Below are positions 7,627 through 64,000 of a stretch of 64,000 bases of DNA, in pieces. The notes under the pieces were generated by a model. The model did not search any database, was not told the origin of the DNA, and was given only the letters and a program-made list of their open reading frames with translations. This DNA is from Saccharopolyspora phatthalungensis (GTDB taxonomy: Bacteria; Actinomycetota; Actinomycetes; Mycobacteriales; Pseudonocardiaceae). Each line of letters opens with the position of its first letter. Positions within the stretch are counted from its first letter, which is position 1. Made by a program: the position numbers and the translations under genes. The stretch covers positions 5,129,501 through 5,193,500 of the forward strand of contig NZ_JACHIW010000001.1 of NCBI RefSeq assembly GCF_014203395.1, given 5' to 3'.

Positions 7627-7734
7627 GCCCCGCGGTCGCGTCGAGCGCACAACACCGCAACCAGGACCATCCCGTTCGAACGACACACAGGCCGGACGTC
7701 CCGGCGGCCTGATCAAGAGCAAAAGGAGCTGGCC

Positions 7735-8367: not shown

Positions 8368-8393
8368 CCGGTATCTCGGCGAGAGGAGCGGCC

Positions 8394-9875: not shown

Positions 9876-10065
9876 TGTTTATGCCGGGTAGTTCCGGCCC
9901 CGGTTGTCCGGTGAGTTCTGGCCCCGGCTGAGTTCGTCCGGTGGGTTTTGGCCCCACCGTGTCCGATGTGGACACGCCCACGATGGTGTGAAGGACCGGT
10001 CTTCCCCCGTTGGTACGGGCAACGATGTGCGCCTTGAATCCAAGCGGTCGTGTCGGAGGCCGGAG

Positions 10066-11772
10066 TTGTCGTTGTCGCGCGTTGAGTTGTTCGCACGCAT
10101 ACGCCGTGATCGGCGGTTGGAGCCGGACCTGTCGGTCCGGGCGTTGGCCGAGCGGTATGGGGTGCACCGCCGGACGGTGCGGGAAGCGCTGGAGTCTGCG
10201 GTGCCCAAGGAACGGAAGAAGCCGCCGCCGCGCCGCTCGGTGCTGGAGCCGGCTTATGGGTTGATCGACGAGATGCTGCGCGCGGATCTGTCGGCGCCGC
10301 GCAAGCAGAAGCACACGACCGCGCGGATCTACCAGCGGCTGATCACAGAGCATGGGTTCACCGCAGCGGGCCGGACCGTGGTCTACGAGTACGTCGCCCG
10401 GCGGCGGCCGGAGCTGGTGGCCGAGCTGCGCGAGGAACAGCGGCACCTGCAGGGCATGGTGCCCCAGCAGCATCAGCCCGGCGAGGAAGCCGAGGTCGAC
10501 TTCGCCGACGTGTGGGTCCGCGTCGCGGGCACGGTGCTGAAGTGTCACCTGTTCACGCTGCGGCTCAGTTTCAGCGGTCGCGCGGTGCACCGCGTGTTCC
10601 TGTCCGAAGGGCAGGAGGCGTTCATGGAAGGCCACGTCGAGGCGTTCCGGGCGCTGGGCGGGATCCCGACCCGCCACATCCGCTACGACAACCTGCGACC
10701 CGCGGTCCAGCGGGTCTGCTTCGGCCGCTCTCGCGTCGAGTCCCAGAACTGGGTCAAATTCCGTTCACACTTCGGTTTCGATGCCTTCTACTGCATCCCG
10801 GGCAAAGACGGCGCGCACGAAAAAGGCGGCGTCGAGCAGGAAGGCGGCCGGTTCCGCCGCACGCATCTGGTCCCGGTCCCGGAGGTCGCCAGCCTGACCG
10901 AGCTGAATGAGAAGATCGCCGCGATCGACCTGGCCGAGGACGAGCGGATCCTGCACGGACAACGGGTCAGCATCGGGTTCAACTTCGCCCACGAGGCCGA
11001 GCTGCTCGCGCCGGTCCCGTTCGAGGAGTTCGACACCGGCAGCACGCTGACCCCGAAGGTCGGCCGGGATTCGCGGATCACCGTGCGGCAGTCGCAGTAC
11101 TCGGTGCCGGCGCGGTTCATCGGCCGGAAAGTGCGAGTCTCGTTGCGCGCCAACGAGGTGCTGGTGTTCGACCGCACCACGATCATCGCCCGGCACGTCC
11201 GGCTCACCCGCCGCGGCGAGTCGCATGACGAGCTGGATCACTACCTGGAGATCCTGCTCGGCAAGCCCGGCGCGCTGGCGGGGTCCACCGCGCTGGCCAC
11301 CGCCCGCGCCGAGGGCACCTTCACCTCGGCGCACGAGGCGTTCTGGTCGGCCGCTCGCGCCGCGCACGGCAACGGCGACGGGACCCGTGCGCTGATCGAG
11401 GTCCTGCTGCTGCACCGCCGCCTGCCCGCCGAGGCGGTGATCACCGGCATCACCACCGCGCTGGACGCCGGGTCGACCAGCCCGGAGCTGGTCGCGATCG
11501 AAGCCCGCAAGGCCGCCGCCAGCACCGCCCGCGACCAGCCGCTGCTCGACGATGCCGACCTGTCCGACCTCGGCATCGACACCACGGTGATCCCGAAGAT
11601 CATCGACGACACCCCTGATCCCCGCGAGCACGCCCCACCCACGCCGGTGAGCACCGCTGCACCGGTGATCTCCCTGCGTTCGCGCCGGGAACTGCCCGCG
11701 ACCTCGACCCCGCTGCCCTCGGTGGCGATCTACGACCAGCTGCTTCGCCGCACGAAAGGCACCTCCGCATGA
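10066..11772 (+). CDS. istA: IS21 transposase IstA
   Basis: A 568-residue DDE transposase. It begins with a helix-turn-helix (LSVRALAERYGVHRRTVREA) and has the catalytic acidic residues in AEVDFADVWV, RYDNLRPAV and AHEKGGVEQEGG, then a beta-barrel-like C-terminal part (YSVPARFIGRKVRV). Start TTG 10066 is preferred because GGAGG lies 6 bases upstream and the protein then begins MSLSRVELFARIRRD, as in relatives; the frame is open back to 9904. The stop overlaps the istB start (ATGA). It cuts and joins element ends together with IstB. Confidence 0.92.
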   Translation: MSLSRVELFARIRRDRRLEPDLSVRALAERYGVHRRTVREALESAVPKERKKPPPRRSVLEPAYGLIDEMLRADLSAPRKQKHTTARIYQRLITEHGFTAAGRTVVYEYVARRRPELVAELREEQRHLQGMVPQQHQPGEEAEVDFADVWVRVAGTVLKCHLFTLRLSFSGRAVHRVFLSEGQEAFMEGHVEAFRALGGIPTRHIRYDNLRPAVQRVCFGRSRVESQNWVKFRSHFGFDAFYCIPGKDGAHEKGGVEQEGGRFRRTHLVPVPEVASLTELNEKIAAIDLAEDERILHGQRVSIGFNFAHEAELLAPVPFEEFDTGSTLTPKVGRDSRITVRQSQYSVPARFIGRKVRVSLRANEVLVFDRTTIIARHVRLTRRGESHDELDHYLEILLGKPGALAGSTALATARAEGTFTSAHEAFWSAARAAHGNGDGTRALIEVLLLHRRLPAEAVITGITTALDAGSTSPELVAIEARKAAASTARDQPLLDDADLSDLGIDTTVIPKIIDDTPDPREHAPPTPVSTAAPVISLRSRRELPATSTPLPSVAIYDQLLRRTKGTSA

Positions 11773-22079: not shown

Positions 22080-23187
22080 CGCTGCCCGTTCTGGAACAGC
22101 ACGTCCAGCGTCTCCGGCCGGTATCCTGCTGCCGGGGCCGGACGAGTCCGCTCTGCTGCTTTCCGGGTCTGCTCGACGTGATGAGCCAGCACCCGCCGGA
22201 TCACGTCTTCCTTGCGCGGCGTCAGATAGATCTGCGTTGTGGTCAACTGCGCATGACCTAAAACGAACTGGACATCAGTGAGCGGCAACGTCGGATCCTG
22301 CGCCATCCGATAGGCGGCGGTGTGCCGCAAGGCATGCAGCGTCGCTGTCGTGCCGGCCTGCTGGTTGACCCGCTCGAACATGTGGTGCACGGCGTGATAC
22401 GTCAGCGGACGGACCGGGTTCCGCAGCGTCCACCACAACGGCTGCCGACGCCCTCGGGGGATGAGATCGCCCATCTCCACCTGATACAACCGCAGCCACA
22501 CGAATGCGTCCGTCGATGCCAGCAACTCCTGCAACTCGCGAGTTCCCTTGCGGACCACCGTGATCAACTGCCGACCGGGGTCCACCCCCGCCAGCGTAGC
22601 CGACAGCAACTCGGAGGCTCGCGCGCCGGTTGATACGTAGAAGGCGACCAGCGCCCGGTCACGATGCGACGCAGCCGGGCGAAGATCTCGTTGAACTCGC
22701 TGTCCGAGATACTCCGCGGGATCCGGCCAGGCACTCTGGGCCGATACAGACCACTGCGCTCGTCTCCCTGCTTTTCCATGGGATTTCGATGCGCGTGTGC
22801 CCGACCGGCGCGACGAGACCTGTCCAGCGGAAACGGGTTGATGATCGGCCCGGTGCCCGCGTCCCGGTGAAACTCATAGAACGACCGCAACACCGTCTCA
22901 CAATGCGCGCGCACCGCCGGCGCGAACGCCTGACCGTGGGCCCGGTCCAACGAGCCGCCACCTGCTGACGCGCGCCAATGCGGCCGAGGCCGCTTGCCAG
23001 CGACCTGCATCCACCGGCTGAAATCACGAGCCTCGACCCGGGTAGCCCGATCCCAGACGACATCGACGCCCTCGGCCCAAAGGAACCGAAACCACCGCGA
23101 AAGGTCCATCCCATACGAGCGGACGGTCAACTCCGCTCGCCCCGCCGCCGGCAGTTCCCGGAAATAGGTCGTGGCGGCTCGCACCGA
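22076..23187 (-). pseudogene. Tyrosine recombinase (first of a tandem pair), frameshifted and 5'-truncated
   Basis: The N-terminal core-binding part ([35 protein letters not shown]) is read down to FARLRR. The catalytic part continues in another frame as DRALVAFYVSTGARASELLS, then HALRHTAAYRM and VLGHAQLTTTQIYL, supplying the Arg, HxxR, His and Tyr residues. One missing base at about 22666 (expected RRHRDRAL) explains the shift. About 50 N-terminal residues appear lost at the junction with the ISL3 fragment near 23190. The similarity is to TnpA-type integrases of Tn554-like elements. Confidence 0.8.
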
Positions 23188-23189
23188 AC

Positions 23190-23984
23190 TGATTCGATGT
23201 TCGCCGGATCGCTCATGAGCCAGCCCACGACCCGCCGAACCGACGGCGGTTTACCACGCGGCTCGGGAACGCGGCCTGCGGCATTCAGGCATTTCTGGTG
23301 TCGGGCCACCGTGCGCTCTACCGCGCCGGCGAGGTTGTTCCACACGTGCCACCTGTCGGCTACCTGCAGCGCGTCCGGTGCGCCTGCGCGGGCGCCCTCG
23401 GCGTAGGCGCCGGCGCGGTCCCGGCAGACGATCTCCACACCGGGATGGGTCTTTAACCACGCGGTCAGTGTCTCGGCGGTGCGGTCGGCCAGCATGTCGA
23501 CCGGGCGGCGGGACTCGAGGTCGATCAGGATCGTGTCGTAGTGGTGTCCCCGGCGCAGGGCGAAGTCGTCCACACCCAGCACCCGAGGAGTCGTGTATTC
23601 GGGGTCGGGCAGGGCGCGAATCAGGCGCAGCAACGTCATCCGGCTCACCGCAGCGGCCAGGCGCTGGGTCAACCGCGCCCCGGCGCGACCACCCAGCGCC
23701 AGCGCGACCGCGCACAACACCCGCTCCAACGCCGTGGTGCGCCGGCCATAACGAGCCGCCAACTCAGGCACCGCTTCGGCGAAGGTCTTCTTGGCACACT
23801 CGGGGTTATCGCAGAACAACCTGCGGACTCGCAGGCCAATCAGCACCCCCCGACCCGATATCGCGCTATCGGACAACCGTCGTTCATATCGGCTGTGCAC
23901 CCGATCGGACAGCGCCCCGCAGCCAGGACACGCCACGCGCCCGGCCAGCGTGCTCGCCTCGATCCGCACCACCGCTCCCGCAGC
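23190..23984 (-). pseudogene. ISL3-family transposase, both ends missing
   Basis: Reads [20 protein letters not shown] (zinc-finger start), [25 protein letters not shown], then the catalytic ITDVF-like core [20 protein letters not shown] and [16 protein letters not shown], ending [14 protein letters not shown]. About 20 N-terminal residues and the C-terminal half with the last catalytic Glu are missing. It is joined directly to the recombinase relic at about 23190, so a deletion probably fused them. Confidence 0.82.
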
Positions 23985-23999
23985 ACGCGGCCTGGGTCT

Positions 24000-24439
24000 C
24001 GGTGTCGGCCCAGACCCGGGCCACGATCGATCCCGACCGTGCGCCAGGCGATCCGCATCAGCTCACACACCGCCGATTTCGAGCAGTGCACCGCCAGCCA
24101 TGCCACCGTGGCATCAAAGGCATAGGTATGTCCGGCACCGTGGCGTGCCCAGGGCAGCCGCGCCACGGTGGGACCGTGCTCGGCGCAGCGCACCCGGGGC
24201 GCCTCGATCTCCGCCGCCACCTGGATGGTGCCCAGATCAAGGGCCTGCCACCGGCGGCGGCCCTCGCCCCGGTCATACCGCCCGGACGGCCGCCAGCGAC
24301 GCCCGCAGAGACCCTTCCTGCGTTTGCGGGGACGCACATGCACCACCACCCGCTCGCCGGCTTCGTCGAACTCCACATCCTCGATCACCGTGCGCCTTTC
24401 GACCCCCACAAGCGCACGCCATAAACTGGTATCCGGCAC
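24000..24439 (-). pseudogene. Second ISL3-family transposase, N-terminal part only
   Basis: From GTG 24439: LWRALVGVERRTVIEDVEFD, ALDLGTIQVAAEIEAPRVRC, TVARLPWARHGAGHTYAFDA and [15 protein letters not shown], the DNA-binding half of an ISL3 transposase from a different subgroup. A single extra base after WRTVG shifts the frame (continuing as [13 protein letters not shown]), and the sequence then runs into the other ISL3 fragment. No catalytic part remains. A possible IS end (GGCTCTTGTGACG on the minus strand) lies near 24560. Confidence 0.75.
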
Positions 24440-24517
24440 GCCGTTGTCCGTTTCCTTTGGCCTTCGACAAGCCAGAAACCTAGACACAGCAACGGCGCGC
24501 CCCATCTTCGGGGCCAA

Positions 24518-25384: not shown

Positions 25385-28300
25385 GTGTCGACGACGGAAC
25401 CGATCGCGATCATTGGCATGTCGTGCCGCCTGCCCGGTGCGCCAGACGTGCGTTCCTTCTGGCGGTTGCTGCGCGACGGCGCCGACGCACTGTCCCAGGT
25501 GGACGGTGTGTGGGCCGGTCGGGTGCCCGACACCGGCCATTTCGAGCCGGAGTTCTTCGGCATGTCACCGCGTGAGGCGGCGGCGACCGACCCTCAGCAG
25601 CGCCTGATGCTCGAACTGGCCTGGGAAGCGCTCGAACACGCCGGCGTGGTGCCGCTCGCGCAGCGGGACAGCGACCTCGGCGTGTTCATCGGCGCCATCT
25701 GGGACGACTACGCGACCCTGGCCCACAGACAGGGCGCGATCAGCCACCAGAGCCTGACCGGGCTGCACCGGGGCATCATCGCCAACCGCGTGTCGTACAC
25801 GCTCGGCGTGCACGGCCCCAGCATGACCGTGGACACCGGGCAGTCCTCGTCGCTGGTCGCGGTGCACCTGGCCTGTGAGAGTCTGCGCGCGGGTGAGTCT
25901 GCGACAGCGGTCGCCGGCGGCGTGAACCTGAACCTCGCGGCGGAGAGCACGCGGGTGATGACGGAGTTCGGCGGCCTGTCGCCGGACGGGCGCTGCTTCA
26001 CGTTCGACGCGCGCGCCAACGGTTTCGTCCGGGGTGAGGGCGGCGGTCTGGTCGTGCTGAAGCCGCTGTCGGCCACGCTGGCCGACGGCGACACCGTGTA
26101 CGCGGTGATCGCCGGAAGCGCGATCAACAACGATGGTCGCAGCGAGACGCTGACGACGCCGAGTGCGGCGGCGCAGTCTGCTGTCATCGCGCGGGCGTAT
26201 CAGCGCGCGGGCATCGACCCCGCCGAGGTTGGCTACGTCGAGCTGCACGGCACGGGCACGAAGGTCGGTGACCCCATCGAGGCCGCAGCCCTGGGCACGG
26301 TGCTGGGCCGCGCGGGTAAGCCGCTCGCTGTGGGCTCGGTCAAGACCAATATCGGTCACCTCGAAGGTGCCGCGGGCATCGCCGGCCTGCTCAAGGTCGT
26401 ACTGTCGCTGCACAGCCGCGAGATCCCGGCGAGCCTGAACTTCGAGGCGCCGAACCCGGAGATCCCGTTCGACGACCTGAACATCCGCGTGCAGCGGGAA
26501 CTCGCTCCATGGCAGGGTTCGCTGGTCGCCGGTGTCAGCTCGTTCGGTGTCGGTGGCACCAATTGCCACGTCGTGGTTCGCTCGGGGCCCGATGCCGCTG
26601 AGGGCTCCAGCTCGGAGGGGAGCTCGGGCCCGTTCGTCCTTTCCGGACGGACGGAGGCGGGTCTTCGTGCTCAGGCGGAACGTCTGCTCGCGTACCTCAA
26701 CGACGAGCCGTCGGTCTCGCTGGCCGATGTGGGATTCTCGCTGGCCACGACACGGACGAGCCTGCGCCACCGGGCGGCTGTGGTCGGTTCAGACTTGCTA
26801 GGCGGGTTGGCGGCGCTGGCATCCGGTGAGGTAGCCGCCGAGGTTGTGACTGGTGTCGCGGACGAGGTTCACCGGCCGGTGTTCGTGTTTCCTGGTCAGG
26901 GTTCGCAGTGGGTTGGTATGGCGTTGGAGTTGTTGGGGTCTTGCGAGGTGTTTGCGGGTTGGATGGGGGAGTGTGCGGGGGCGTTGTCGGAGTTTGTGGA
27001 TTGGTCGTTGTTTGAGGTTTTGGGTGATGCGGTGGCGTTGGAGCGGGTTGATGTTGTTCAGCCTGTGTTGTTTGCGGTGATGGTGTCGTTGGCGGAGTTG
27101 TGGCGGTCGTATGGTGTGGAGCCTTCTGCGGTGGTGGGGCATTCGCAGGGTGAGATTGCGGCTGCGTGTGTGGCGGGTGCGTTGTCGTTGCGGGATGCGG
27201 CGCGGGTGGTTGCGTTGCGGTCGAAGGCGATTGTGGCGTTGTCTGGTCGTGGTGGGATGGTGTCGGTTCCGTTGTCGGTGGATGGGGTGGTGTTGCCGGA
27301 GGGTGTTGGGGTTGCGGCGGTGAATGGTCCGTCGTCGGTGGTGGTGTCGGGTGATCCTGGGGGGCTTGCTGCGGTGTTGGCGGGGGTGGAGGGGGCGAAG
27401 GTGGTCCCGGTGGATTATGCCTCGCATTCGGCGCATGTTGAGGTGCTCAGGGAGGAATTGTTGGAGGTGCTGGCGCCGATCGAGCCTTGTGTGCCGCGGG
27501 TGCCGTTTTTTTCGACGGTGACGGCTGGTTGGCTGGATCGTTTGGTGGATGCGGAGTATTGGTACCGGAATCTGCGGGAGACGGTGCGGTTCGAAGAGGC
27601 TACGCGGGCGTTGGTCGAGCAGGGTTTCGGGGTCTTCGTCGAAGCGAGTGCGCACCCGGTTCTTGTCGCCGCTGTGCAGGAGACCGCGTGCTCGGCCGTG
27701 GTCGTCGGGTCGTCCAGGCGCAACGACGGGTCACTCGGCAGGTTCATGTCCTCGCTCGCGGAGCTGCACGTCAACGGTGTCGCCGTCGATTGGTCCTCGG
27801 TGTTCCCGGGCGGGCGTCGGATCGCGCTGCCGACGTATGCGTTCCAGCGCCGCCGGTTCTGGTTCGATACCGTGGAGGAAATCGCTGAGTCGGAGCCGGT
27901 CGTCGTCGAGGACTTCGACGCGCTCGGACTCGTGCGTGCCCACGCGGCGGTCGTGCTCGGCACGTCGCGGGCGTCCGTCGAGTCGCACCTGACGTTCAAG
28001 GACCTCGGTTTCGACTCGCACATGGCGGTCGAACTGCGCAACCGGCTGAGCAAGGCCATCGGCCGGTCGTTGCCGCACACGGCCCTGTACGACTACCCGA
28101 CGCCGACCGCGCTGGCCGGGGCGCTTAGCACGCCGGAGGAGTCGACGCAGGTGCGTGCGGCGTCGAAGGCATCAGACGACCCGATCGCGATCGTGGGGAT
28201 GAGCTGCCGCCTCCCTGGTGGCGTGCGCAGTCCGGAAGATCTCTGGGCCCTGGTAGCCAACGGGGTGGATGCGATCTCCGGCTTCCCGACCGATCGTGGC

Positions 28301-31300
28301 TGGGACCTGGAATCCCTGTACGACCCCGACGGCGAGCGATTCGGGTCGAGCTACACCCGCAGCGGCGGCTTCCTGCACGACGCGGCGATGTTCGACGCGG
28401 ACTTGTTCGGTATGAGCCCGCGTGAGGCGCTGGCGACCGATCCGCAGCAGCGGCTGCTACTGGAGACCTCGTGGGAGGCGCTGGAGCGCGCGGGCATCGA
28501 CCCGAAGTCGCTGCGGGACAGCGACACCGGCGTATTCGTCGGCGCGATGGCCCAGGACTATCTGCCGCAGCTGCACGAGGTGCCTGAGGGCTTCGACGGC
28601 TACGGCCTGACCGGCAGCACCAGCAGTGTGGCGTCCGGCCGTATCTCGTACGTGCTCGGCCTGCAAGGTCCCGCTATGACCGTGGATACGGCGTGTTCGT
28701 CGTCGTTGGTGGCGTTGCATCTTGCGGTGCAGGCGTTGCGTAGTGGTGAGTGTTCGCTTGCGTTGGCTGGTGGTGTGACGGTGATGTCGACGCCGGGTGT
28801 GTTTGTGGAGTTTTCGCGGCAGCGTGGTTTGTCGGTTGATGGTCGGTGTAAGGCGTTTGGTGCTGGTGCGGATGGGACTGGTTGGTCTGAGGGCGTTGGT
28901 GTGTTGTTGTTGGAGCGGTTGTCGGATGCTCGGGGTAATGGTCGTCGGGTGTTGGCGGTGGTTCGTGGTTCGGCGGTGAATCAGGATGGTGCGTCGAATG
29001 GTTTGACGGCGCCGAATGGTCGGTCGCAGCAGCGGGTGATTCGTCAGGCGTTGGCGAATGCTGGTCTGTCTGCTTCGGATGTTGATGTGGTTGAGGCGCA
29101 TGGTACTGGTACGGCGTTGGGTGATCCGATCGAGGCGCAGGCGATTATCGCGACTTATGGTCAGGATCGTGATCGTCCACTGTGGCTTGGTTCGTTGAAG
29201 TCGAATATCGGTCATACGCAGGCGGCTGCTGGTGTCGGTGGTGTGATCAAGATGGTGGAGGCGATGCGGCACGGGATCATGCCTCGGACTCTGCACGTCG
29301 ATGTGCCCTCGCCCAAGGTGGAGTGGTCTGCGGGTGCGGTGTCGCTGTTGACGGAGAATGTGCCGTGGGAGGTCGATCGTCCTCGTCGTGCGGGTGTGTC
29401 GTCGTTTGGTGTGAGTGGCACGAACGCGCATGTGATCGTCGAGCAGGCTCTGGAGGTAGTGGAGCCGGCGCGGTCTGAGCATGGCGGTGTTGTGTTGTGG
29501 CCGGTGTCGGGTCGGTCCGAGCGGGCGTTGCGTGATCAGGCCCGGCGGTTGCGGGAGGTGTTGGAGGCGGGGGCTGCCGTTGCGGACATCGGGTACTCGC
29601 TGGCGACTACGAGGACGGCGTTCGAGCATCGTGCGGTGCTGATGGGTGAGGACAGTGCGGATTTCTGCGAGGCGTTGGATGCGGTCATCGGTGAGAGGCC
29701 GTCACCGCGTGTGCTGCGGGGGAGCGCACAGGGCCGCGGTAAGACTGTGTTCGTGTTTCCTGGTCAGGGTTCGCAGTGGGTTGGTATGGCGGTGGAGTTG
29801 TTGGGGTCTTGCGAGGTGTTTGCGGGTTGGATGGGGGAGTGTGCGGGGGCGTTGTCGGAGTTTGTGGATTGGTCGTTGTTTGAGGTTTTGGGTGATGCGG
29901 TGGCGTTGGAGCGGGTTGATGTTGTTCAGCCTGTGTTGTTTGCGGTGATGGTGTCGTTGGCGGAGTTGTGGCGGTCGTATGGTGTGGAGCCTTCTGCGGT
30001 GGTGGGGCATTCGCAGGGTGAGATTGCGGCTGCGTGTGTGGCGGGTGCGTTGTCGTTGCGGGATGCGGCGCGGGTGGTTGCGTTGCGGTCGAAGGCGATT
30101 GTGGCGTTGTCTGGTCGTGGTGGGATGGTGTCGGTTCCGTTGTCGGTGGATGGGGTGGTGTTGCCGGAGGGTGTTGGGGTTGCGGCGGTGAATGGTCCGT
30201 CGTCGGTGGTGGTGTCGGGTGATCCTGGGGGGCTTGCTGCGGTGTTGGCGGGGGTGGAGGGGGCGAAGGTGGTCCCGGTGGATTATGCCTCGCATTCGGC
30301 GCATGTTGAGGTGCTCAGGGAGGAATTGTTGGAGGTGCTGGCGCCGATCGAGCCTTGTGTGCCGCGGGTGCCGTTTTTTTCGACGGTGACGGCTGGTTGG
30401 CTGGATCGTTTGGTGGATGCGGAGTATTGGTACCGGAATCTGCGGGAGACGGTGCGGTTCGAAGAGGCTACGCGGGCGTTGGTCGAGCAGGGTTTCGGGG
30501 TCTTCGTCGAAGCGAGTGCGCACCCGGTGCTGACCATGGCCCTGGGGGAGACGGTCGAGGATGTCGAGGCCTCGGCGTACGCGGTCGGCACCCTGCGGCG
30601 CAATGACGGTGGCCTGCCGAGGTTCGTCAACGCGCTGGCGGAAGCCCACGTGCGTGGCGCCGTCCTCGACTGGGGCGCCGTGATCCCTGCCGGCCGGCGG
30701 ATCGCGCTGCCGACCTACGCCTTCCAGCACGAACGTTACTGGCTGACCGCTAAGCGGCCCCGCCGACAGGTCGGCGCGACTGACGACTGGCGCTACCGAG
30801 TCACCTGGCGTCCGCTGGACATCCGGGACGACAATGGGCCGTCTGGAACCTGGCTGCTGGTCGTGCCGGCGAACTACACCGAAGATCCGCTGGTCGAGGC
30901 GTGCGCCCACGGGCTGGGTACCGACGTCGTGCGGCTGGTCGTCGACGGCGAGACGGTGGCGCTACCCGAGATACCGGTCGCTGGCGTGCTATCCCTGCTG
31001 GGCCTCGACGAACGCCGCGAGCCGGGCCAGTCGGCCAGCCGAGGGTTCGCCGCGACGGTGAACCTGCTCCAGTCGGCACCGGAGGTGCCGGTGTGGCTGG
31101 GTACGCGTGGTGCGGTCGCGGTCGACCGTGACGACCCGCTCGACCACCCCGAGCAGGCGCTCGTCTGGGGGCTGGGCCGGGCATACGCCTTGGAACGGCC
31201 GGACCGGCGTGGTGGCCTCGTCGATCTCTCCGACGACGTGGCCGCGCTCCGGAAGGCCCTCGCGGGCGCGGACTTCGAAGACCAGGTCGCGGTCCGGGGG

Positions 31301-34300
31301 AAGCAGGTCTACGCGCGCCGGCTCGTCCGCGCCGCACCGGCGACCGTGTCCAAGCCCTGGCAGCCGGGCGGAACCGCGCTGATCATCGGCGGTACGGGTG
31401 CGCTGGGTGCGCATGTTGCCCGCCGGCTGGCGGAGTCCGGCGTCGAGCACATTGTCCTGACGAGCCGTCGCGGCGAGCAGGCCGACGGCGCCTCCGAACT
31501 CGTGGCCGAGCTCTCGTCGCTAGGGGCCTCCGCCACGGTCGCCGCCTGCGACGCCGCCGACCGCGCGCGGCTGGCGGAACTCCTCGATTCGCTGCCCGAC
31601 CTGCGCGTTGTCGTGCACGCGGCCGGCACGCTGGTCGAGGCGCCGATCGAGGACGTCACCGTCGAGCAGATCGAGAAGGTGCTGCGGCCCAAGGTCGCGG
31701 GTGCACGCAACCTCGACGAGCTGACCCGTGACCGCGACCTCGACGCGTTCGTGTTGTTCTCCTCGGGGTCGGGCATCTGGGGGAGCGCGGGCCAGGGCGT
31801 CTACGGTGCCGCGAACGCCTACCTGGACGGACTCGCCAAGCACCGCCGCGACCTGGGTCTGCCCGCCACCGCTGTCGCCTGGGGTGCCTGGGGCGGCGGC
31901 GGAATGGGTGCCGTCGACGGTCAGGAGGACAAGTGGCGGCGGCTCGGCGTGCTCGCGATGTCGCCGGAGACGGCGATCACCGCGCTGTGGCAGGCCGTCG
32001 AGGCCCGGGACATCACGCTGACGGTCGCCGACATCGACTGGCAGCGGTTCGGACCGGCGTTCACCTCGGCCCGGCCGCGCCAACTGTTGGCCGACCTGCC
32101 TGAGCTGCGACGCGTCCTGAGCGCAGACGAAAACAGTCCGCGCGGTGAACTGGCGGCGAGCCTGCCCAGACTGTCCGATGTGGACCGTTCGCGGGCACTG
32201 CTCGACCTCGTGCGTGGGCACGCGGCTGCCGTGCTCGGTCACCGGGACGACACCGCCGTGCAACCGTCGCGGGCGTTCAAGGAGATCGGCTTCGACTCGC
32301 TGACCTCGGTGGAGCTGCGCAACAAGCTCGTCACCGCGACCGGCCGCAAGCTGCCAGTGTCCCTGATCTTCGACTATCCGACACCGCAGGCGCTGGCCCG
32401 CTTCCTCGACGGCGAACTGTTCGGCACCACGACGGAGACGGCAACCGCGCCGGCCGTCGTCGCACTGGACGAACCTGTCGCAATCGTGGCCATGGGATGC
32501 CGTTTCCCCGGTGGCGTGCGCAGCCCGGAAGACCTATGGGACCTGGTCGCCGGTGGCGTGGACGCGATCTCCGACTTCCCGTCCGACCGTGGCTGGAACG
32601 TCGACTCCCTCTACGATGCCGACCCCGGAGTGCCCGGCAAGTCCTACACCCGCAGCGGCGGCTTCCTGCACGACGCGGCCCTGTTCGACGCCGACTTCTT
32701 CGGCATGAGCCCGCGTGAGGCACTGGCGACCGATCCGCAGCAGCGGCTGCTACTGGAGACCTCGTGGGAGGCGCTGGAGCGCGCGGGCATCGACCCGGAC
32801 TCGTTGCGGGGCAGCGACACCGGTGTGTTCGTCGGCGCGATGGCCCAGGATTACGGCCCCCGGATGCACCAGGCACCACAGGATCTCGAAGGCTACATCC
32901 TCACCGGCAACATCGGCAGCGTCGTGTCCGGTCGCATCTCCTACACGTTCGGGCTGGAAGGCCCGGCGATGACCGTGGATACGGGGTGTTCGTCGTCGTT
33001 GGTGGCGTTGCATCTTGCGGTGCAGGCGTTGCGTAGTGGTGAGTGTTCGCTTGCGTTGGCTGGTGGTGTGACGGTGATGTCGACGCCGGGTGTGTTTGTG
33101 GAGTTTTCGCGGCAGCGTGGTTTGTCGGTTGATGGTCGGTGTAAGGCGTTTGGTGCTGGTGCGGATGGGACTGGTTGGTCTGAGGGCGTTGGTGTGTTGT
33201 TGTTGGAGCGGTTGTCGGATGCTCGGGGTAATGGTCGTCGGGTGTTGGCGGTGGTTCGTGGTTCGGCGGTGAATCAGGATGGTGCGTCGAATGGTTTGAC
33301 GGCGCCGAATGGTCGGTCGCAGCAGCGGGTGATTCGGCAGGCGTTGGCGAATGCTGGTCTGTCTGCTTCGGATGTTGATGTGGTTGAGGCGCATGGTACG
33401 GGAACGGCGCTGGGTGATCCGATCGAGGCGCAGGCGATTATCGCGACTTACGGTCAGGACCGTGATCGTCCACTGTGGCTTGGTTCGTTGAAGTCGAATA
33501 TCGGTCATACGCAGGCGGCTGCTGGTGTCGGTGGTGTGATCAAGATGGTGGAGGCGATGCGGCACGGGATCATGCCCAAGACCCTGTACGCCGATGAGCC
33601 CTCGCCGCATGTCGACTGGTCCGAGGGACGGGTGTCGTTGCTGGCCGAGGCCCGGCCGTGGGAAGGGACCGACCGGCCGAGGCGGGCGGGTGTCTCGGGC
33701 TTCGGCGTCGGCGGGACGAACGCGCACGTGGTGCTGGAGCAAGCCCCCGAGCAGCCGGAGATCGAGACATCGGAGGTCGGTGACGGTCCGGTGCCGTGGG
33801 TGCTGTCCGCGAAGTCGCCGGAAGCGCTCCGGGACCAGGCCGCGCAACTCAGGTCGGTCGAAGGCTCGCCGCTGGACATCGCCTACTCGCTGGCGACGAC
33901 GCGCACGGCGTTCGAGCACCGCGCGGTGGTGATCGGTTCGGATCGCGCCGACTTCGACGCGGGCTTGGCCGCACTGACGGCAGGCGAATCCGTTGCGGTG
34001 AGCGGCGCCGGTCGGCCGGTGTTCGTGTTTCCTGGTCAGGGTTCGCAGTGGGTTGGTATGGCGTTGGAGTTGCTGGAGTCTTCTGTGGTGTTTGCGGGTT
34101 GGATGGGGGAGTGTGCGGGGGCGTTGTCGGAGTTTGTGGATTGGTCGTTGTTTGAGGTTTTGGGTGATGCGGTGGCGTTGGAGCGGGTTGATGTTGTTCA
34201 GCCTGTGTTGTTTGCGGTGATGGTGTCGTTGGCGGAGTTGTGGCGGTCGTATGGTGTGGAGCCTTCTGCGGTGGTGGGGCATTCGCAGGGTGAGATTGCG

Positions 34301-37300
34301 GCTGCGTGTGTGGCGGGTGCGTTGTCGTTGCGGGATGCGGCGCGGGTGGTTGCGTTGCGGTCGAAGGCGATTGTGGCGTTGTCTGGTCGTGGTGGGATGG
34401 TGTCGGTTCCGTTGTCGGTGGATGGGGTGGTGTTGCCGGAGGGTGTTTGGGTTGCGGCGGTGAATGGTCCGTCGTCGGTGGTGGTGTCGGGTGATCCTGG
34501 GGGGCTTGCTGCGGTGTTGGCGGGGGTGGAGGGGGCGAAGGTGGTCCCGGTGGATTATGCCTCGCATTCGGCGCATGTTGAGGTTCTCAGGGAGGAATTG
34601 CTGGAGGTGCTGGCGCCGATCACGCCGCAGGTGTCGACGGTGCCGTTCTACTCCGCGGTGACCGGCGCCGAGTTCGACGCCACCGGTCTGACCGCCGAGT
34701 ACTGGTACACGAACCTGCGGGAGACGGTCCAGTTCGAGCGGACAACGCGAGCGCTCGTCGAGGAGGGTTTCACTGCCTTCGTCGAGGTGAGCGCGCACCC
34801 CGTGCTCACCGCCGCGATAGGGGAGACGGTCGACTTCGCTGTTGGCACCTTGCGGCGTGACGACGGCGGGCTGCGGCGGTTCCTCACGGCCGCGGGCGAG
34901 CTTTACAGCCGTGGTATCGACGTCGACTGGTCGCCAGTGCTGGCCGGTGGCCGGAAGGTCGCGCTGCCGACGTATGCGTTCCAGCGCAAGAGGTTCTGGC
35001 TCGACCCGGCCGCTCCGGCCCCGACGGGCGGTACGGATCACCCGATGCTCAGCGCCGCGCTCCCCGTGGCCGAGTCGGACGAGGTGCTGCTGTCCGGTGA
35101 GCTGTCCCGGCACGCCCAGCCCTGGCTCACCGACCACGGCGTCTTCGACACGGTGATCGTGCCGGGCACCGCCTTCGTCGAACTGGCGCTGCGCGCGGCC
35201 GAGGAGGCGGGCTGCGACCGTCTCGACGAACTGACCCTCCAGGCGCCGATCGTGCTGCCGGACCAGGGATCGGTGACGGTGCAGGTGCTCGTCGGCGCAC
35301 CCGACCAGCGGCAGCGGCGTGCGGTCACGATCCACTCCCGACCGGGCGCCGACCGGCCGTGGACCAAGAACGCGGCGGGCACGCTCAGCCCTGGCGAGGA
35401 CCAAGTGCCGGCCGGCCTCACCGAATGGCCGCCGGCCGGTGCCGAACAGGTGTCGATCGCGGGCTACTACGAAGCGCTGGCCGACATGGGCTACCACTAC
35501 GGCCCAGTCTTCCAGGGGCTGCGCACGGTCTGGCGCGCGAGCGACGACCTGTACGCCGAGGTCGCGCTGCCCGACGATCAGCACGAACAGGCCGCCCGGT
35601 TCGGACTGCACCCGGCGCTGCTCGACGCGTGCCTGCATGCGGTCGGCCTCAGCGACGTCCTCGCGCAGGGCATCCGACTGCCGTTCAACTGGTCGGGCGT
35701 CGCGCTGCACGCCGTCGGCGCCACCTCGCTGCGGGTTCGCCTGCACGTGACCTCGGACGACTCAGTGTCGCTGCTGGCCACGGATACGAGCGGCACACCC
35801 GTCGCCGAGGTGGACAACCTCGTGCTGCGACCCGCCTCCGCCGACCAGATCGACGCACGGCCAGAGCTGCGCGACTCGCTGTTCAACGTGGTGTGGACGC
35901 CGGTCCCGGTGGGGCAGACTGCCGACCTGCCCGAGGTGCTGGACTTCCGGCCGGTCGACGGTGACGTCGTCACCGAGGCGCACGCGGCGACCACCCGGTT
36001 GCTGGAGCTCCTGCGTGACCGTACCTCTGAGGACAAGCTCGTCGTGCTGACGCACCGCGCGATCGGTGACGACCTGCTCGACCTCGCCCACTCCACACTG
36101 TGGGGGGCCGTGCGGTCCGCGCAGACCGAGAACCCCGGCCGGTTCGTGCTGGTCGACACCGACGACGACCCTACGTCCGCCGACGTGCTGGCCAGCGCGG
36201 TCGCGCTCGACGAACCGCAGGTCGCACTGCGTGCGGGCACTGTGCTCGTGCCGAGGCTCGCACGACCTAAAGGCACCGCGCCCGCTCGGGAACTTAACCC
36301 CGACGGCACCGTGCTGATAACCGGTGGCACCGGCACCCTCGGTGGCCTGCTCGCCAAGCACCTCGTCACCGCGCACGGCGTGCGGAACCTTGTGCTCACG
36401 AGCCGTCGTGGTTCGGAGGCCGACGGCGCGGACGACCTGCACGCCGAGCTCACCGGGCTGGGTGCGTGGGTGCGGATCGTCGCCTGCGACGCCGCCGACC
36501 GCGACCAGCTCGCGGCCGTGCTCGCGGACATCCCGGCCGAGCACCCGCTGACCGCCGTCGTGCACACCGCGGGCGTCGTGGACGACGGTGTGCTCGGGTC
36601 GCTGACCTCCGACCGGGTCGGCCCGGTACTGCGTCCCAAGGTCGACGCGGCGATCGCACTGCACGAACTGACCAAGGACCTCGACCTCGCGGCGTTCGTG
36701 CTGTACTCGTCGGCGTCGGCGACCTTCGGAACCGCCGGACAGGCCAACTACTCGGCCGCCAACGCTTTCCTCGACGCGCTGGCGCACCACCGCCGCGCGC
36801 AGGGTCTGCCGGCCGTCTCGATGGCTTGGGGCTACTGGGAACAGCAGAGCGAACTCACCCGCGGTCTCGGCGCGGGCGACCTCGACCGGTTGGCCCGCAC
36901 CGGGCTTCGACCGCTCACCAACGACCACGGCCTCGCCCTGTTCGACGCGGCCCTGCGCCTGGACGAGCCGCTGGCCGTGACCGTGCCGCTGGATCTCGCC
37001 GCACTGCGCAACGGGCCGGTCCCGACCGTCCTGCGAGGCCTGGTCCGCGGCCGGCAACGTCGGGTCGCACGGTCCGCGCAGACCAGCGTGACCGGGCTCG
37101 CTCGTACCCTCGCCGACCTCACTCCGGAGGAGAGGCGGGCGGCGGTGTTGGACGTGGTCCGCACGCATGTCGCCGCAGTGCTCGGACACAGCGGTGCCGG
37201 TGGCGTCGCGGCAGAACGTCCGTTCAAGGACAACGGGTTCGACTCGCTGACCGCGGTGGAACTGCGCAACCGGCTCAACGGTGTCACCGGGCTGGCGCTG

Positions 37301-40300
37301 CCCGCCACCCTGGTCTTCGACCACCCGACACCGCTCGCACTGGCCGACCACTTGGTGTCCGAACTGGCCGGTGAACCGGTCGAGGTCGCGGCCGTCGTGG
37401 ACGCGGTCGCCACCGACGAGCCGATCGCCATCGTCGCCATGGCCTGCCGCTACCCGGGGGACGTCCGGTCGCCGGAAGACCTGTGGCAGTTGGTGTTCGA
37501 CGGCCGTGACGCCGTCGGGGAGTTCCCGACCGACCGCGGTTGGGACCTCGACGGCCTCTACCACCCTGACCCCGAGCATGCCGGTACCTCGTACACCCGG
37601 CACGGCGCGTTCCTCGCCGACGCCGCCGAGTTCGACCCCGAGCTGTTCGGCATGAGTCCCCGTGAGGCACTGGCCACCGACCCGCAGCAGCGGCTGCTAC
37701 TGGAGACCACGTGGGAGCTGTTCGAGCGTGCGGGCATCGACCCGACGTCGGTCAAGGGCAGCCGGACCGGTGCGTTCGTCGGCGTCATGTACAACGACTA
37801 CGCCTCCCGCGTCCACGATGTCCCGGAGGCCGTGGAAGGGCAGCTGCTCACTGGCAGCGCCGGCGCGGTCGCGTCCGGCCGACTGTCCTATGTGTTCGGT
37901 CTGGAGGGGCCGGCCATCACCGTCGACACCGCGTGCTCCTCGTCGCTGGTCGCGATGCACCTTGCGGCACAAGCACTGCGCAACGGCGATTGCACGATGG
38001 CATTGGCTGGCGGTGTCGTGCTGTTGGCGAGTCCTGGCTTGTTCGTCGAGTTTTCGCGGCAGCGCGGGCTTTCTGCCGACGGGCGCTGCAAGTCCTTCGG
38101 TGCTGGCGCCGACGGCACCGGTTGGGGCGAGGGCGTCGGCATGCTGCTGTTGGAGCGGTTGTCGGATGCTCGGCGCAATGGTCATCGGGTGTTGGCGGTG
38201 GTTCGTGGTTCGGCGGTGAATCAGGATGGTGCGTCGAATGGTTTGACGGCGCCGAATGGTCCGTCGCAGCAGCGGGTGATTCGTCAGGCGCTGGCGAACG
38301 CTGGTGTGTCCGCTTCGGATGTTGATGTGGTTGAGGCGCACGGCACGGGAACGGTGCTGGGTGACCCGATCGAGGCGCAGGCGATCATCGCGACCTATGG
38401 TCAGGACCGTGACCGTCCACTGTGGCTTGGTTCGTTGAAGTCGAACATCGGTCACACGCAGGCGGCCGCCGGTGTCGGTGGTGTGATCAAGATGGTGCAG
38501 GCGATGCGGCACGGGGTTCTTCCGCGCACTCTGCATGCGAACGAGCGGTCGCCGCACATCGACTGGTCGGCCGGGGAGCTCTCACTGCTGACCGAGGCCC
38601 AGCCGTGGGAAGGCCCGATGCGTGCCGGTGTGTCGTCGTTCGGTGTGAGCGGTACGAACGCCCACGTGATCATCGAAGGTGCGGCGCAGGTGGAAGCCTT
38701 GCCGACGCCTGAGACCACGACACCGGTGCCGTGGGTGCTGTCCGCAAAGAGCGAGCAGGCGCTGAAGGACCAGGCCGCACGGCTGAAGGCGGTCGAAGGG
38801 GCGCCGTTGGACATCGGTTTCTCCCTTGCCACGACCCGGGCGGCGCTGGAATACCGCGCGGTGGTGATCGGCCAGGACATTGACGGATTCCGGCGCGGGC
38901 TCGACGCGGTCGCCGAAGGTCAGGGCATCACGGGGCGGGCCGAGCCACGCGGTAAGACTGTGTTCGTGTTTCCTGGTCAGGGTTCGCAGTGGGTTGGTAT
39001 GGCGGTGGAGTTGTTGGGGTCTTGCGAGGTGTTTGCGGGTTGGATGGGGGAGTGTGCGGGGGCGTTGTCGGAGTTTGTGGATTGGTCGTTGTTTGAGGTT
39101 TTGGGTGATGCGGTGGCGTTGGAGCGGGTTGATGTTGTTCAGCCTGTGTTGTTTGCGGTGATGGTGTCGTTGGCGGAGTTGTGGCGGTCGTATGGTGTGG
39201 AGCCTTCTGCGGTGGTGGGGCATTCGCAGGGTGAGATTGCGGCTGCGTGTGTGGCGGGTGCGTTGTCGTTGCGGGATGCGGCGCGGGTGGTTGCGTTGCG
39301 GTCGAAGGCGATTGTGGCGTTGTCTGGTCGTGGTGGGATGGTGTCGGTTCCGTTGTCGGTGGATGGGGTGGTGTTGCCGGAGGGTGTTGGGGTTGCGGCG
39401 GTGAATGGTCCGTCGTCGGTGGTGGTGTCGGGTGATCCTGGGGGGCTTGCTGCGGTGTTGGCGGGGGTGGAGGGGGCGAAGGTGGTCCCGGTGGATTATG
39501 CCTCGCATTCGGCGCATGTTGAGGTGCTCAGGGAGGAATTGTTGGAGGTGCTGGCGCCGATCGAGCCTTGTGTGCCGCGGGTGCCGTTTTTTTCGACGGT
39601 GACGGCTGGTTGGCTGGATCGTTTGGTGGATGCGGAGTATTGGTACCGGAATCTGCGGGAGACGGTGCGGTTCGAAGAGGCTACGCGGGCGTTGGTCGAG
39701 CAGGGTTTCGGGGTCTTCGTCGAAGCGAGTGCGCACCCGGTGCTGACCATGGCGCTGGGGGAGACGGTCGACATCGCGGTCGGTACCTTGCGTCGCGACG
39801 ACGGTGGGCTCCAGCGGTTCCTTACGGCCGCGGGCGAACTCTACAGCCGTGGCGTCGAGGTCGACTGGTCGCCAGTGCTGGCCGGTGGCCGGAAGGTCGC
39901 GCTGCCGACGTATGCGTTCCAGCACAAGCGGTTCTGGCTCGACGCCGGGAAGTCCGGGCACGGCAACGTCGCAGCGGCCGGGCTGACCTCGGCCGGGCAC
40001 CCGTTCTTGGGGGCCATGGTGGCACTGCCCGCGTCCGGCGGATTCCTCTGCACAGGAAGGGTCTCGCTGCGCGAACACCCTTGGCTCGCCGACCACGGCG
40101 TGCTCGGCACCGTGATGCTGCCCGGTGTGACCTTCGTCGAACTGGCGATCCACGCCGGTGACCAGGTCGGCTGCGACCTGCTCGAAGAACTCGTCCTCGA
40201 AGCACCGCTGACCCTCACCGACACCACTGACGTGCGGATCCAGCTGGAAGTCGGCGCCGCCGACGACAACGGCCGGCGCACGCTCTCCGTGCACTCCCGT

Positions 40301-43300
40301 ACCGGTGACGACGAGGAATGGACCCGGCACGCGACCGGTGTGCTGGCCAACGCCACCGACCGGCCGGGCCAGGACCTCGCCCAATGGCCGCCCACCGGCG
40401 CCGACCCGATCGACGTCACCAGCTTCTACCAGGACATGGCTGATCGCGGCTACGGCTACGGCCCGGCGTTCCGGGGCGTGAAGGCGGCCTGGCGCAGCAT
40501 CGACGACGTGTACGTCGAGGTCGAGATGCCGACCGAACAGGACGTCACCGGCTTCGCCCTGCACCCGGCGCTGTTCGACGCCGCCCTGCACGGGATCGGC
40601 CTCGGCACCGACGGCCAGGCGCTGCTGCCGTTCTCGTGGAGCGGGGTGTCGCTGCACGCGGCCGGCGCCACCGCCGCGCGGATCCGGGTCCGGTTCATCG
40701 GGGAGAACGCGGCAGCACTGGACATCGCGGACGCCACCGGCCTGCCGCTTGCGTCGATCGGGACGCTGGAGATCCGGCCGATGTCCGCCGACCAGGTCCA
40801 GCGCGACAAGGTCCCCGACAGCCTGTACCACGTGCGCTGGCAGGCCAGGACCGTCACGGCCCAGACCAGCGACAACCACTACGTGGTCATGGGGCCGGAC
40901 GCCATCGGCCTGCGCGAGGCCCTGGAGACGGCGGGTGCCCTGGTCAGCGCCTGCCCGAGCCTGGAGCAACCGGACTGGGGCGTCACCGAGGGCACCGCCG
41001 TGCCCGATGTCGTGCTCAACGTGGGTGCGCTCGATCTCGGCGTCAATGCCGCCGACCGGACGGTCGACGCCACGCACGAGGCGCTGGGGCTGATCCGGTT
41101 CTGGTTGGCCGACCAGCGGTTCGCTGAGACTCGGTTGGTGTTCGTGACGACTGGTGCGGTCGCTGTCGGTACGCAAGACGACGTGCGAGACCTCGCCGGA
41201 GCCGCCGTCTGGGGCCTCGTGCGGACCGCGCAGTCGGAGAACCCGGGCCGGTTCGTGCTGCTCGACCTTGACGGTGGCGACGCGTCCACCGCCGTGGTCC
41301 CGGCCGTGATCGACGCCGGTGAACCGCAGGTCGCGGTCCGCGCGGGTACAGCGTACGTCCCGCAGTTGGCGACGCTCGCCAGCAACGGTGCACTCCGCTC
41401 GCTGGCAGGGGAATCCACGTGGCGAATCGATGTCTCCGCCGTCGGCACTCTGGAGAACCTGGCGTCGTTGCCGGCCCCGCAGGCTCTCGCGCCGCTGGAG
41501 CCGGGACAAGTGCGGATCGCGGTACGGGCCGCCGGCCTGAACTTCCGTGACGTCCTGGTCGGGCTCGGCATGTACCCCGGTGTGGCGATTATGGGCAGCG
41601 AAGGCGCCGGCGTGGTGCTCGAAGTAGGCCCAGGGGTCACCGGATTCGCACCGGGCGACCGCGTGTTCGGCCTGTTCATCGAGGGCGCGTTCGGTCCGAC
41701 GGTCGTCGCCGACCACCGGCTGGTGGCCAAGATGCCGGTGGGCTGGTCGTTCGCCGAGGCCGCGTCGGTACCGGTCGTGTTCCTCACCGCGTACTACGGT
41801 CTCGTCGACCTGGCCGGCCTCCGGGTCGGCGAGTCGGTGCTGATCCACGCGGCGACCGGCGGTGTCGGCATGGCGGCGCTGCAACTGGCCCGGCACCTCG
41901 GTGCCGAGGTCTTCGCCACGGCCAGCCCCGCCAAGTGGCCCACGCTGCGGGAACTCGGCCTCGACGACGACCACATCGCCTCCTCCCGTGACCTCACGTT
42001 CGAACACCACTTCATGGCCACGACCAACGGCCGGGGCGTCGACGTAGTCCTGGACTCGCTGGCCAAGGAGTTCGTGGACGCGTCGCTGCGACTTTTGCCG
42101 CGCGGCGGGCGGTTCAGCGAGATGGGCAAGACCGACATCCGCGACGCCGACGAGGTCGCGGCCACCCACCCAGGTGTGGCCTACACGGCGTTCGAGCTGA
42201 TCAGCGCGGGTCCGGACCGCATCCAGCAGATGCTGTCTGACCTGCTCGCGCTGTTCGACAGCGGCGCGCTGTCGCCCGCCCCGGTCACGGTCTGGGACGT
42301 GCGGCACGCACCGGAGGCGCTGCGATTCCTCAGCCAGGCCAAGCACATCGGCAAGATCGTGCTGACGATCCCGGCCCCGCTCGACCGCAACGGCACCGTG
42401 CTGATCACTGGCGGGACCGGCACGCTCGGCGCCGAGGTGGCACGGCACCTGCTCGTCACCGAGCGGGTCGGCCACGTGGTACTGGCCAGCCGCAGCGGCG
42501 CACGGACCGAGGAAGCCCAGCTGTTGCAGGCAGAACTTGGTGAGCGCGCCACGTTCGTCGCGTGTGACGTGGCCGATCGCGGGCAACTCGCCGACCTGGT
42601 GGCCTCGATCCCGGCCGACCGCCCCCTGACAGCGGTCGTGCACGCGGCAGGTGTGCTGTCGGACGGGCTCGTGCAGTCCCTGACCACGGAGCAGGTGAAC
42701 ACCGTCCTGCGGCCCAAGGTCGCCGCCGCGTGGCACCTGCACGAGCTGACCAAGGACATGGACCTGGCCGCGTTCGTGCTGTTCTCCTCGGCGGCGGCCA
42801 CCCTGGGCAGCGCCGGTCAGGCCAACTATGCGGCGGCCAACGCCTTCCTGGACGGGCTCGCCCAGCACCGCAGGGCCGCGGGCCTGCCGGCGACCTCGCT
42901 GGCGTGGGGGTTCTGGGCCCAGCGCGGCGGCATGACCGCCCACCTGGACGACGCCGACGTCGCCAGGATGACCCGCTCCGGCATCGCCGCACTATCCACT
43001 GAGGACGGCCTAAAGCTGTTCGACGCCGGCAGCGCGGCGGAGAACGCCGCGCTCGTGCCGGTACGACTGGACGTGGCGGCACTGCGGTCGGCGACCGGTG
43101 AGAGCTCACCGCTGCTGCGCGGCCTGGTCCGCACGCCTGCCCGCCGTGTCGTGCAGACCGTGCAGGCCGGCGCCTCGACGCTGACGGACAAGCTCGCCGC
43201 GATGAACCCCACCGAGCGCGAACGATTCCTGGTAGACCTGGTCCGCGGGCACACCGCGACCGTGCTCGGCCACGACGGCACCGACTCCGTGCCGGGCGGC

Positions 43301-43678
43301 AAGGCATTCAAGGAACTCGGGTTCGATTCCCTTACCTCGGTCGAACTGCGCAACAGACTCAACGCGACCACCGGACTGCGGTTGCCGGTGACGCTCGTGT
43401 TCGACCACCCGACACCGAGGGCGCTGGCGGCCAAGCTGCTCGCTGACCTCGCGCTCGTCGACGACACCCAGCCTGCCGTCACCACGGTGGCCAGCGAGCT
43501 CGACCGGCTGGAGGCCGCGTTCGCCGCGTCCTCGGACACCGAACTGGACCGGGCGGAATTCGCCGCCCGGCTGCGTGCCCTGCTCGACCTCGTCGAACGG
43601 CCCGCCGACACCGGCGCCGACGAGCTGGGCGACGACGTCACCGCCGAGGAGCTCTTCGCCATCCTCGACGGCGACTGA
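25385..43678 (+). CDS. Modular type I PKS 1: loading module (KSQ-AT-ACP) and modules 1-3
   Basis: 6097 residues; GTG 25385 has AAGGAAG 5 bases upstream. Loading: KSQ with Gln153 in VDTGQSSS in place of Cys, AT (Ser587, YASH 678-681), ACP Ser878. Module 1: KS Cys1104, AT Ser1543, KR Tyr2140 with Trp2132 and no LDD (A type), ACP Ser2305. Module 2: KS Cys2535, AT Ser2967, DH His3251/Asp3414, KR Tyr3789 (VDD, B type), ACP Ser3954. Module 3: KS Cys4184, AT Ser4614, DH His4904/Asp5065, ER about 5346-5656 ([11 protein letters not shown]), KR Tyr5815, ACP Ser5982, then an acidic docking tail. All four ATs have GHSQGE and YASH, the methylmalonyl signature. Predicted work: decarboxylate methylmalonyl to a propionyl starter, then add mm with OH, mm with C=C, mm fully reduced. 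This equals the first half of the herboxidiene backbone (HerB-like). Confidence 0.93.
26879..27660 (+). repeat. Methylmalonyl AT block, copy 1 (loading module)
   Basis: First of five near-identical AT-coding blocks using T-rich codons. G+C is 34 of 60 at 26881-26940, against 45 of 60 at 26581-26640 just upstream. It encodes ELLGSCEVF and EGVGVAA, the variant shared with modules 1 and 3. Confidence 0.9.
28681..30451 (+). repeat. KS-linker-AT block, module 1 (pair with module 5)
   Basis: A block of about 1.77 kb nearly identical to 49134-50904, starting exactly at the KS active-site codons (GTGGATACGGCGTGT). The AT part, which starts at 29747, stays identical to the loading-module copy through 30528. 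Confidence 0.9.
32974..33575 (+). repeat. KS block, module 2 (third copy)
   Basis: About 600 bases nearly identical to 28681-29282 and 49134-49735, starting at the same active-site position. One base makes the residue before the Cys Gly rather than Ala. Confidence 0.88.
34019..34621 (+). repeat. Methylmalonyl AT block, module 2
   Basis: Shares the block up to the codons for LAPI, then diverges to GC-rich sequence. It carries the ELLESSVVF and EGVWVAA variants also found in module 5. Confidence 0.88.
38960..39768 (+). repeat. Methylmalonyl AT block, module 3
   Basis: Near-identical to the loading and module 1 copies ([16 protein letters not shown]). It extends a little further with module 1 (codons for LTMALGETV) before diverging. 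Confidence 0.9.
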
Positions 43679-43725
43679 CCGCCCCATCGACCAGCAACCC
43701 GTACCGACCCATCCACGAGGCGATC

Positions 43726-63804
<20,079 letters not shown>

Positions 63805-63813
63805 GGAACGACC

Positions 63814-64000
63814 ATGACCGACCAGAAGATCGTCGACGCGCTCCGGGCCACACTCAAGGCCAACGAGCGGCTGCGCGCGCGCAACGACGAACTCACCGAG
63901 ATGGCGCGGGAACCGCTCGCGATCATCGGCATCGGCTGCCGGTTCCCTGGCGGTGCGGACAGCCCCGAACAGCTGTGGGACCTGCTGGCCGCTTGCGCCG
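63814..64000 (+). CDS. Modular type I PKS 3, N-terminus (cut by window edge)
   Basis: ATG 63814 lies 9 bases after the PKS2 stop, with a GAGGAA ribosome site. The first 30 residues are a docking coiled coil ([20 protein letters not shown]), followed by the KS start [20 protein letters not shown]. By collinearity it should be module 8: a malonyl AT with a reductive set able to make the 3-oxygen or 2,3-ene needed for a tetrahydropyran, and a thioesterase. None of that is visible here. Confidence 0.88.

Follow-up and report, generated by a model that had tools for sequence, protein, structure and literature searches.

A putative herboxidiene-type biosynthetic operon in Saccharopolyspora phatthalungensis

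The closest described system to the locus considered here is the her cluster of Streptomyces chromofuscus ATCC 49982 / A7847, which makes herboxidiene (GEX1A). The two loci share the predicted chain, the loader, the module pattern, a single terminal module with a thioesterase, and the set of epoxidase, methyltransferase and P450. They differ in host, Streptomyces as against Pseudonocardiaceae here, and in what is left of a further P450 gene at the end of the present operon; the likeness is one of domain pattern.

Herboxidienes are counted as one of three bacterial polyketide families that impair the spliceosome (PMC8163091), and the producers named in the excerpts cited are all Streptomyces (PMC5004037, PMC8163091, PMC13206506). 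A second system of this kind is the pld cluster of Streptomyces platensis, the product of which likewise hits SF3b. As described in the relevant part of that report, it has a KSQ loader, a modular cis-AT PKS, a P450 and an epoxidase, PldD, likened to the MonCI type; it differs in having four PKS proteins, 10 or 11 modules (both numbers appear in the paper), an acyltransferase, its own LAL regulator and a macrolactone product (PMC8163091). Herboxidiene-type clusters are already known from Streptomyces; the present one, very probably for herboxidiene or a near relative of it, lies in an unusual host. A complete-looking cluster in the Pseudonocardiaceae would give a second, distant enzyme set with which to study how the pyran closes, how the epoxide forms and how the late hydroxyl is added, and would point to a possible new herboxidiene producer.

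Organisation of the polyketide synthase genes

The window is the whole stretch of 64,000 nucleotides that was analysed (G000:C1:5129501-5193500), from a genome of 8.54 Mb in 6 contigs. The next 20 kb of the same contig (L009) was read past the window end, its overlap with the window being identical; continued window coordinates are used throughout, such that the L009 position equals the continued coordinate minus 63800. PKS gene 1, the P450 gene and every gene between them share one strand, and the intergenic gaps measure 47, 9, 13, 41 and 24 bases when the methyltransferase start is placed at 71128. Only the first 187 bases of PKS gene 3 (63814..64000) fall inside the window.

Table 1. Features of the locus, in window coordinates continued past position 64,000.
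Feature	Position	Strand	Remarks
ISL3-type transposase pieces, two overlapping ORFs	23127..24517	-	DDE_Tnp_ISL3, Zn_ribbon_ISL3, HTH_Tnp_ISL3; left cluster border
PKS gene 1	25385..43678	+	6097 aa; loader and M1-M3; ORF without internal stop
Loader KSQ-AT(mm)-ACP	about 25385-28165	+	PKS gene 1; approximate limits
M1 KS-AT(mm)-KR-ACP	about 28175-32419	+	PKS gene 1; approximate limits
M2 KS-AT(mm)-DH-KR-ACP	about 32462-37354	+	PKS gene 1; approximate limits
M3 KS-AT(mm)-DH-ER-KR-ACP	about 37418-43474	+	PKS gene 1; approximate limits
PKS gene 2	43726..63804	+	6692 aa; M4-M7; ORF without internal stop
M4 AT(mal)-DH-KR	about 43825-48600	+	PKS gene 2; approximate limits
M5 AT(mm)-DH-KR	about 48640-53520	+	PKS gene 2; approximate limits
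M6 AT(mm)-KR	about 53563-57750	+	PKS gene 2; approximate limits
M7 AT(mal)-DH-ER-KR	about 57823-63675	+	PKS gene 2; approximate limits
PKS gene 3 (M8), docking-KS-AT(mal)-DH-KR-ACP-TE	63814-69672 (L009:14-5872)	+	1952 aa; one module
FAD monooxygenase, probable 14,15-epoxidase	69686-71086	+	466 aa; Lsd18/LasC and MonCI matches
SAM methyltransferase, probable 17-O-methyltransferase	71128-71988	+	286 aa; MitM match
P450, probable 18-hydroxylase	72013-73281	+	422 aa; PikC match
Second P450, truncated	homology 73297 to about 74214 (L009:9497 on)	+	operon end
Transposase C-terminal remnant, DDE_Tnp_1_4	74220-74516 (to L009:10716)	+	PF13701, E 3.7e-22, profile 335-431 of 435

Nine KS domains were found across the three PKS genes with the Pfam KS model. 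The active site of the loader KS reads VDTGQSSS, as in a KSQ, whilst the other eight carry the active cysteine. Methylmalonyl-type AT motifs (GHSQG/YASH) are present in six of the nine ATs, those of the loader, M1, M2, M3, M5 and M6, and malonyl-type motifs (GHSVG/HAFH) in the remaining three (M4, M7 and M8); substrate and domain classes were assigned from known sequence motifs. The extender order from M1 to M8 is thus mm, mm, mm, mal, mm, mm, mal, mal, and the reductive domains run KR; DH-KR; DH-ER-KR; DH-KR; DH-KR; KR; DH-ER-KR; DH-KR, both series matching the pattern deduced from the structure of herboxidiene. The methylmalonyl modules M1, M2, M3, M5 and M6 correspond to the methyls at C16, C14, C12, C8 and C6 in herboxidiene numbering, and these are the positions named in a published discussion of methyl substitution, which also gives a C17,C18-diol monomethyl ether (PMC13206506). 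Some motifs are non-canonical: the M2 DH has HxxxDxxxxP in place of the textbook HxxxGxxxxP, and the LDD motif of the KR is VDD in M2, LSD in M3 and LRD in M7.

The first-pass annotation, made within the window, had listed a KSQ-AT(mm) loader and the AT and reductive domains of seven modules, and motif reading agreed with it at every position, loader included. It had further forecast that a single malonyl module with DH and KR and a thioesterase would lie past position 64,000, and that epoxidase, P450 and methyltransferase genes would come after it. PKS gene 3 proved to be KS-AT(malonyl)-DH-KR-ACP-TE, ending in a thioesterase domain (PF00975, E 5.7e-24), and the three tailoring genes follow directly on the same strand; the outcomes named as contrary to the forecast, namely a third PKS gene of several modules, a methylmalonyl AT in the next module or missing tailoring genes, did not occur. 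As the forecast preceded the reading of the downstream sequence, this was a genuine test and not an after-the-fact fit, and a backbone predicted from a partial cluster and then confirmed on sequence unseen by the predictor makes a clean case.

The proposal that the cluster makes herboxidiene or a close relative is therefore supported by the domain pattern of the loader and eight modules, the thioesterase, the tailoring genes, the short intergenic gaps and the fingerprints described below, and we consider it highly likely that the operon encodes a herboxidiene-type pathway, product identity resting on colinearity. On the other side stand the non-canonical motifs of M2, M3 and M7, the weak call for KR6, the broken second P450 and the lack of a regulator immediately next to the operon in the ORFs scanned. 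Gene order, domains, AT, KR and ER classes and enzyme families are read directly; the chemistry of each step, the position of each tailoring reaction and the expression of the pathway are inferred. In the proposed route the KSQ loader would decarboxylate a methylmalonyl unit to the propionyl starter, M1 would install the C16-methyl and C17-hydroxyl, M2 the C14-methyl and C14=C15 alkene, and M3 the C12-methyl next to a saturated C13. The diene at C10=C11 and C8=C9, together with the methyl at C8, would come from M4 and M5. M6 would then set the C6-methyl and C7-hydroxyl, and M7 the saturated C4-C5, before M8 adds C1-C2 and its KR and DH generate a 2,3-alkene. Addition of the C7 oxygen to this alkene would close the pyran and the thioesterase would release the acid, with the flavin enzyme expected to form the 14,15-epoxide, the P450 the 18-hydroxyl and the methyltransferase the 17-methoxy group.

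A macrolide of the pladienolide/FD-895 type addresses the same target class, and its cluster resembles the present one in the KSQ loader and in an epoxidase like MonCI, but the four PKS proteins, 10 or 11 modules and acyltransferase PldC described in the cited part of the pladienolide report (PMC8163091) contrast with the eight modules in three proteins found here, and no free-standing acyltransferase gene is present among the nine ORFs scanned from PKS gene 3 onwards. Such a product is extremely improbable, and we regard it as ruled out by the module and gene count.

Stereochemical fingerprints and closure of the pyran

Herboxidiene has the configuration 3R,6S,7S,12S,16R,17R,18R, and the classes of ketoreductases and enoylreductases follow fingerprint rules. 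When the descriptors are converted by hand and these rules applied, C16/C17 becomes a (2R,3S) unit that would require an A1 KR in M1, C6/C7 a (2R,3R) unit that would require a B1 KR in M6, and C12 a 2S methyl that would require the tyrosine in the ER of M3. KR1 has Trp141 and Gln146 and lacks LDD, as expected of the A1 type; ER3 carries the tyrosine (GMYPG); and KR6, which has LDD and, in place of Pro144, A144, is probably of B1 type, this being the weakest of the three calls because N148 (Asn148) is present. All three classes thus appear to agree with herboxidiene. The chance of such agreement is about 1/32 if classes are taken as equally common, which they are not, and so serves only as a guide. 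KR4, KR5 and KR8 have LDD and KR2 has VDD, which fits trans alkenes.

PKS gene 3 contains a single DH-like region, and so dehydration and pyran closure may both fall to the DH of M8. We hypothesise that dehydration followed by oxa-Michael closure is the simplest route to the ring. In ambruticin biosynthesis AmbDH3 is reported to perform both steps (PMC4979870). AmbDH3 is a cis-AT DH, and its dual role is the one that the M8 domain would need to play without a helper enzyme; however, when solved structures are ranked by kinship to the M8 DH, AmbC comes only seventh of 34 matches. In this domain alone of the six DHs, a tyrosine replaces the aspartate just before the catalytic histidine, yet its nine unique residues do not stand out from the six to nine counted in the other five.

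Tailoring genes and the downstream end of the operon

The best relatives of the flavin enzyme among solved structures, nearly full length, are Lsd18/LasC (E 3.8e-118) and MonCI (E 1.5e-105). Both serve polyether pathways; by contrast, a single epoxide is expected here, and no polyether cyclase family was matched among the nine ORFs scanned from PKS gene 3 onwards. The nearest solved structure to the methyltransferase is MitM (E 2.1e-62), a longer ORF from 70600 having no match before residue 188, and that to the P450 is PikC (E 6.1e-99). The three families all adjoin the PKS genes, the matches being at family level, and the same nine ORFs contain no other intact tailoring gene directly after the PKS genes.

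A second P450 gene starts 15 bases past the first and retains P450 homology up to about residue 306, beyond which lies the transposase remnant. As this gene is truncated, the tailoring set has changed. It is accordingly possible, if the less favoured outcome, that the same C19 backbone is tailored differently to give a congener of herboxidiene, such as one hydroxylated elsewhere or one in which a tailoring step is missing: family-level matches cannot give the site at which each enzyme acts, and GEX1 congeners exist according to the excerpt cited (PMC5004037). Against this, the three enzyme types that herboxidiene needs lie directly after the PKS genes, unaccompanied by other intact tailoring functions. 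We judge herboxidiene itself, as opposed to a close congener, to be the rather likely product. More speculatively, an earlier form of the operon may have carried a pair of P450 genes at its end and yielded a more highly oxidised herboxidiene until a transposase event cut the second, leaving a simpler compound or a new congener today, with the M8 DH perhaps performing both dehydration and pyran closure; we hold this combined history to be doubtful.

The adjacency of the truncated P450 to a transposase remnant, the transposase pieces on the left border and the lack of a regulator directly beside the operon, in the flanking ORFs scanned on both sides, might also suggest a silent or decaying pathway that yields no product. 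This is unlikely, as the three PKS frames extend for about 44 kb without an internal stop and active-site motifs are intact in all eight extender KSs, nine of nine ATs and eight of eight KRs. About 8 kb past the P450, on the opposite strand, is a LuxR-type HTH regulator of 774 aa (L009:17479-19803, 81279-83603 in continued coordinates), which also has weak AAA/NB-ARC matches.

Distribution, genomic setting and history of the acyltransferases

No second her-like cluster was detected in the genome searches and no epoxidase relative exceeded 54% identity, hence the cluster looks rare in the collections searched, which were samples or partial listings. This ceiling applies to the matches listed, 80 of 236 loci, in a search that may omit records of the organism's own or a very near genome, and to 392 genomes sampled from the genus of S. 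physcomitrii (locus L018; G025), seven of which pass E 1e-135. Within the host genus (22 genomes, own included) no epoxidase relative exceeds 47% in the nine other genomes with a match, and within the family none exceeds 53%, with 62 of 390 genomes passing E 1e-100, own included. Three of the family genomes, G257, G264 and G105, have their epoxidase match at a contig position that agrees to a few bases with the one in Kutzneria sp. 744 (L025), Lentzea alba (L012) and Saccharothrix sp. ALI-22-I (L011), respectively, and Kutzneria is a member of the Pseudonocardiaceae. The 16S gene, compared with 12 named genomes, is at best 91% identical over its full length (Actinoplanes), seven of the 12 giving no match. 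Methyltransferase relatives in the family are at most 48% identical (5 of 390 genomes pass 1e-60, own included). Among 92 loci (L010-L101), the combination of PKS-TE, epoxidase, methyltransferase and P450 was found at E 1e-10 only in L090, from the organism's own genome, these loci spanning at most 10 kb per side for the epoxidase search and about 1.5 kb for L090-L101, such that a split arrangement would be missed. In Goodfellowiella coeruleoviolacea (L071:10001-16533), a PKS with a thioesterase, a P450 and a related epoxidase adjoin, with no methyltransferase match. A plasmid collection searched with the opening 8 kb of PKS gene 2 gave 102 matching records, none over more than 80% of the query, and the 20 listed were 71.5 to 75.6% identical, which we read as ordinary PKS kinship. 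Neither these records nor the loci of the broad epoxidase search included one recognised as the her cluster of S. chromofuscus.

Published 'herboxidiene' cluster matches are reported at 2% in Amycolatopsis (PMC12282000) and in isolate 8K308 (PMC12187853), at 7-8% in strains DHE 17-7, SHP 22-7 and DHE 7-1 (PMC8227522), at less than 50% of genes in Saccharomonospora (PMC7990883), and with no percentage given in Lentzea waywayandensis (PMC9120177). These are taken as weak similarity; the L. waywayandensis locus compared here (L030) has an epoxidase relative with no PKS-TE, methyltransferase or P450 match. Titles and abstract openings among the open-licence matches listed announce no full herboxidiene cluster outside Streptomyces.

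Upstream of the PKS genes are a match to a Mu-type transposase C-terminal domain (9904-11772, + strand) and a weak phage-integrase SAM-like match (22564-23184, - strand). A set resembling nitrile or amide utilisation genes occupies 2444-9470 (+ strand), and comprises a carbon-nitrogen hydrolase, the alpha and beta subunits of a nitrile hydratase, a cytosine/purine-type permease, a Gpr1/Fun34/YaaH protein and a NicO-type nickel transporter. The GC content of the PKS genes is 69.4%, as against 65.0% in 1-9000 and 65.2% in 74971-83800; this is a hint of foreign origin, and is also usual for PKS genes.

Five of the methylmalonyl ATs contain near-identical stretches of DNA, at 26879-27660 (loader), 29747-30528 (M1), 34019-34621 (M2), 38960-39741 (M3) and 50200-50903 (M5). 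The loader sequence is 99.9% identical to those of both M1 and M3 over 782 bases, and 99.0% identical to that of M5 over 704, while M2 and M5 share 99.5% over 603; identity is 92.2% over 791 bases between loader and M2, and 91.3% over 818 between M1 and M2. Such near-identity likely reflects recent gene conversion among the methylmalonyl ATs, from which that of M6 stands apart, having no match to the other ATs at 90% over 200 bases. The same genome has two more large regions of modular PKS genes, at G000:C2:841245-879620, with nine KS matches, and at G000:C2:1037986-1085828, with 11.
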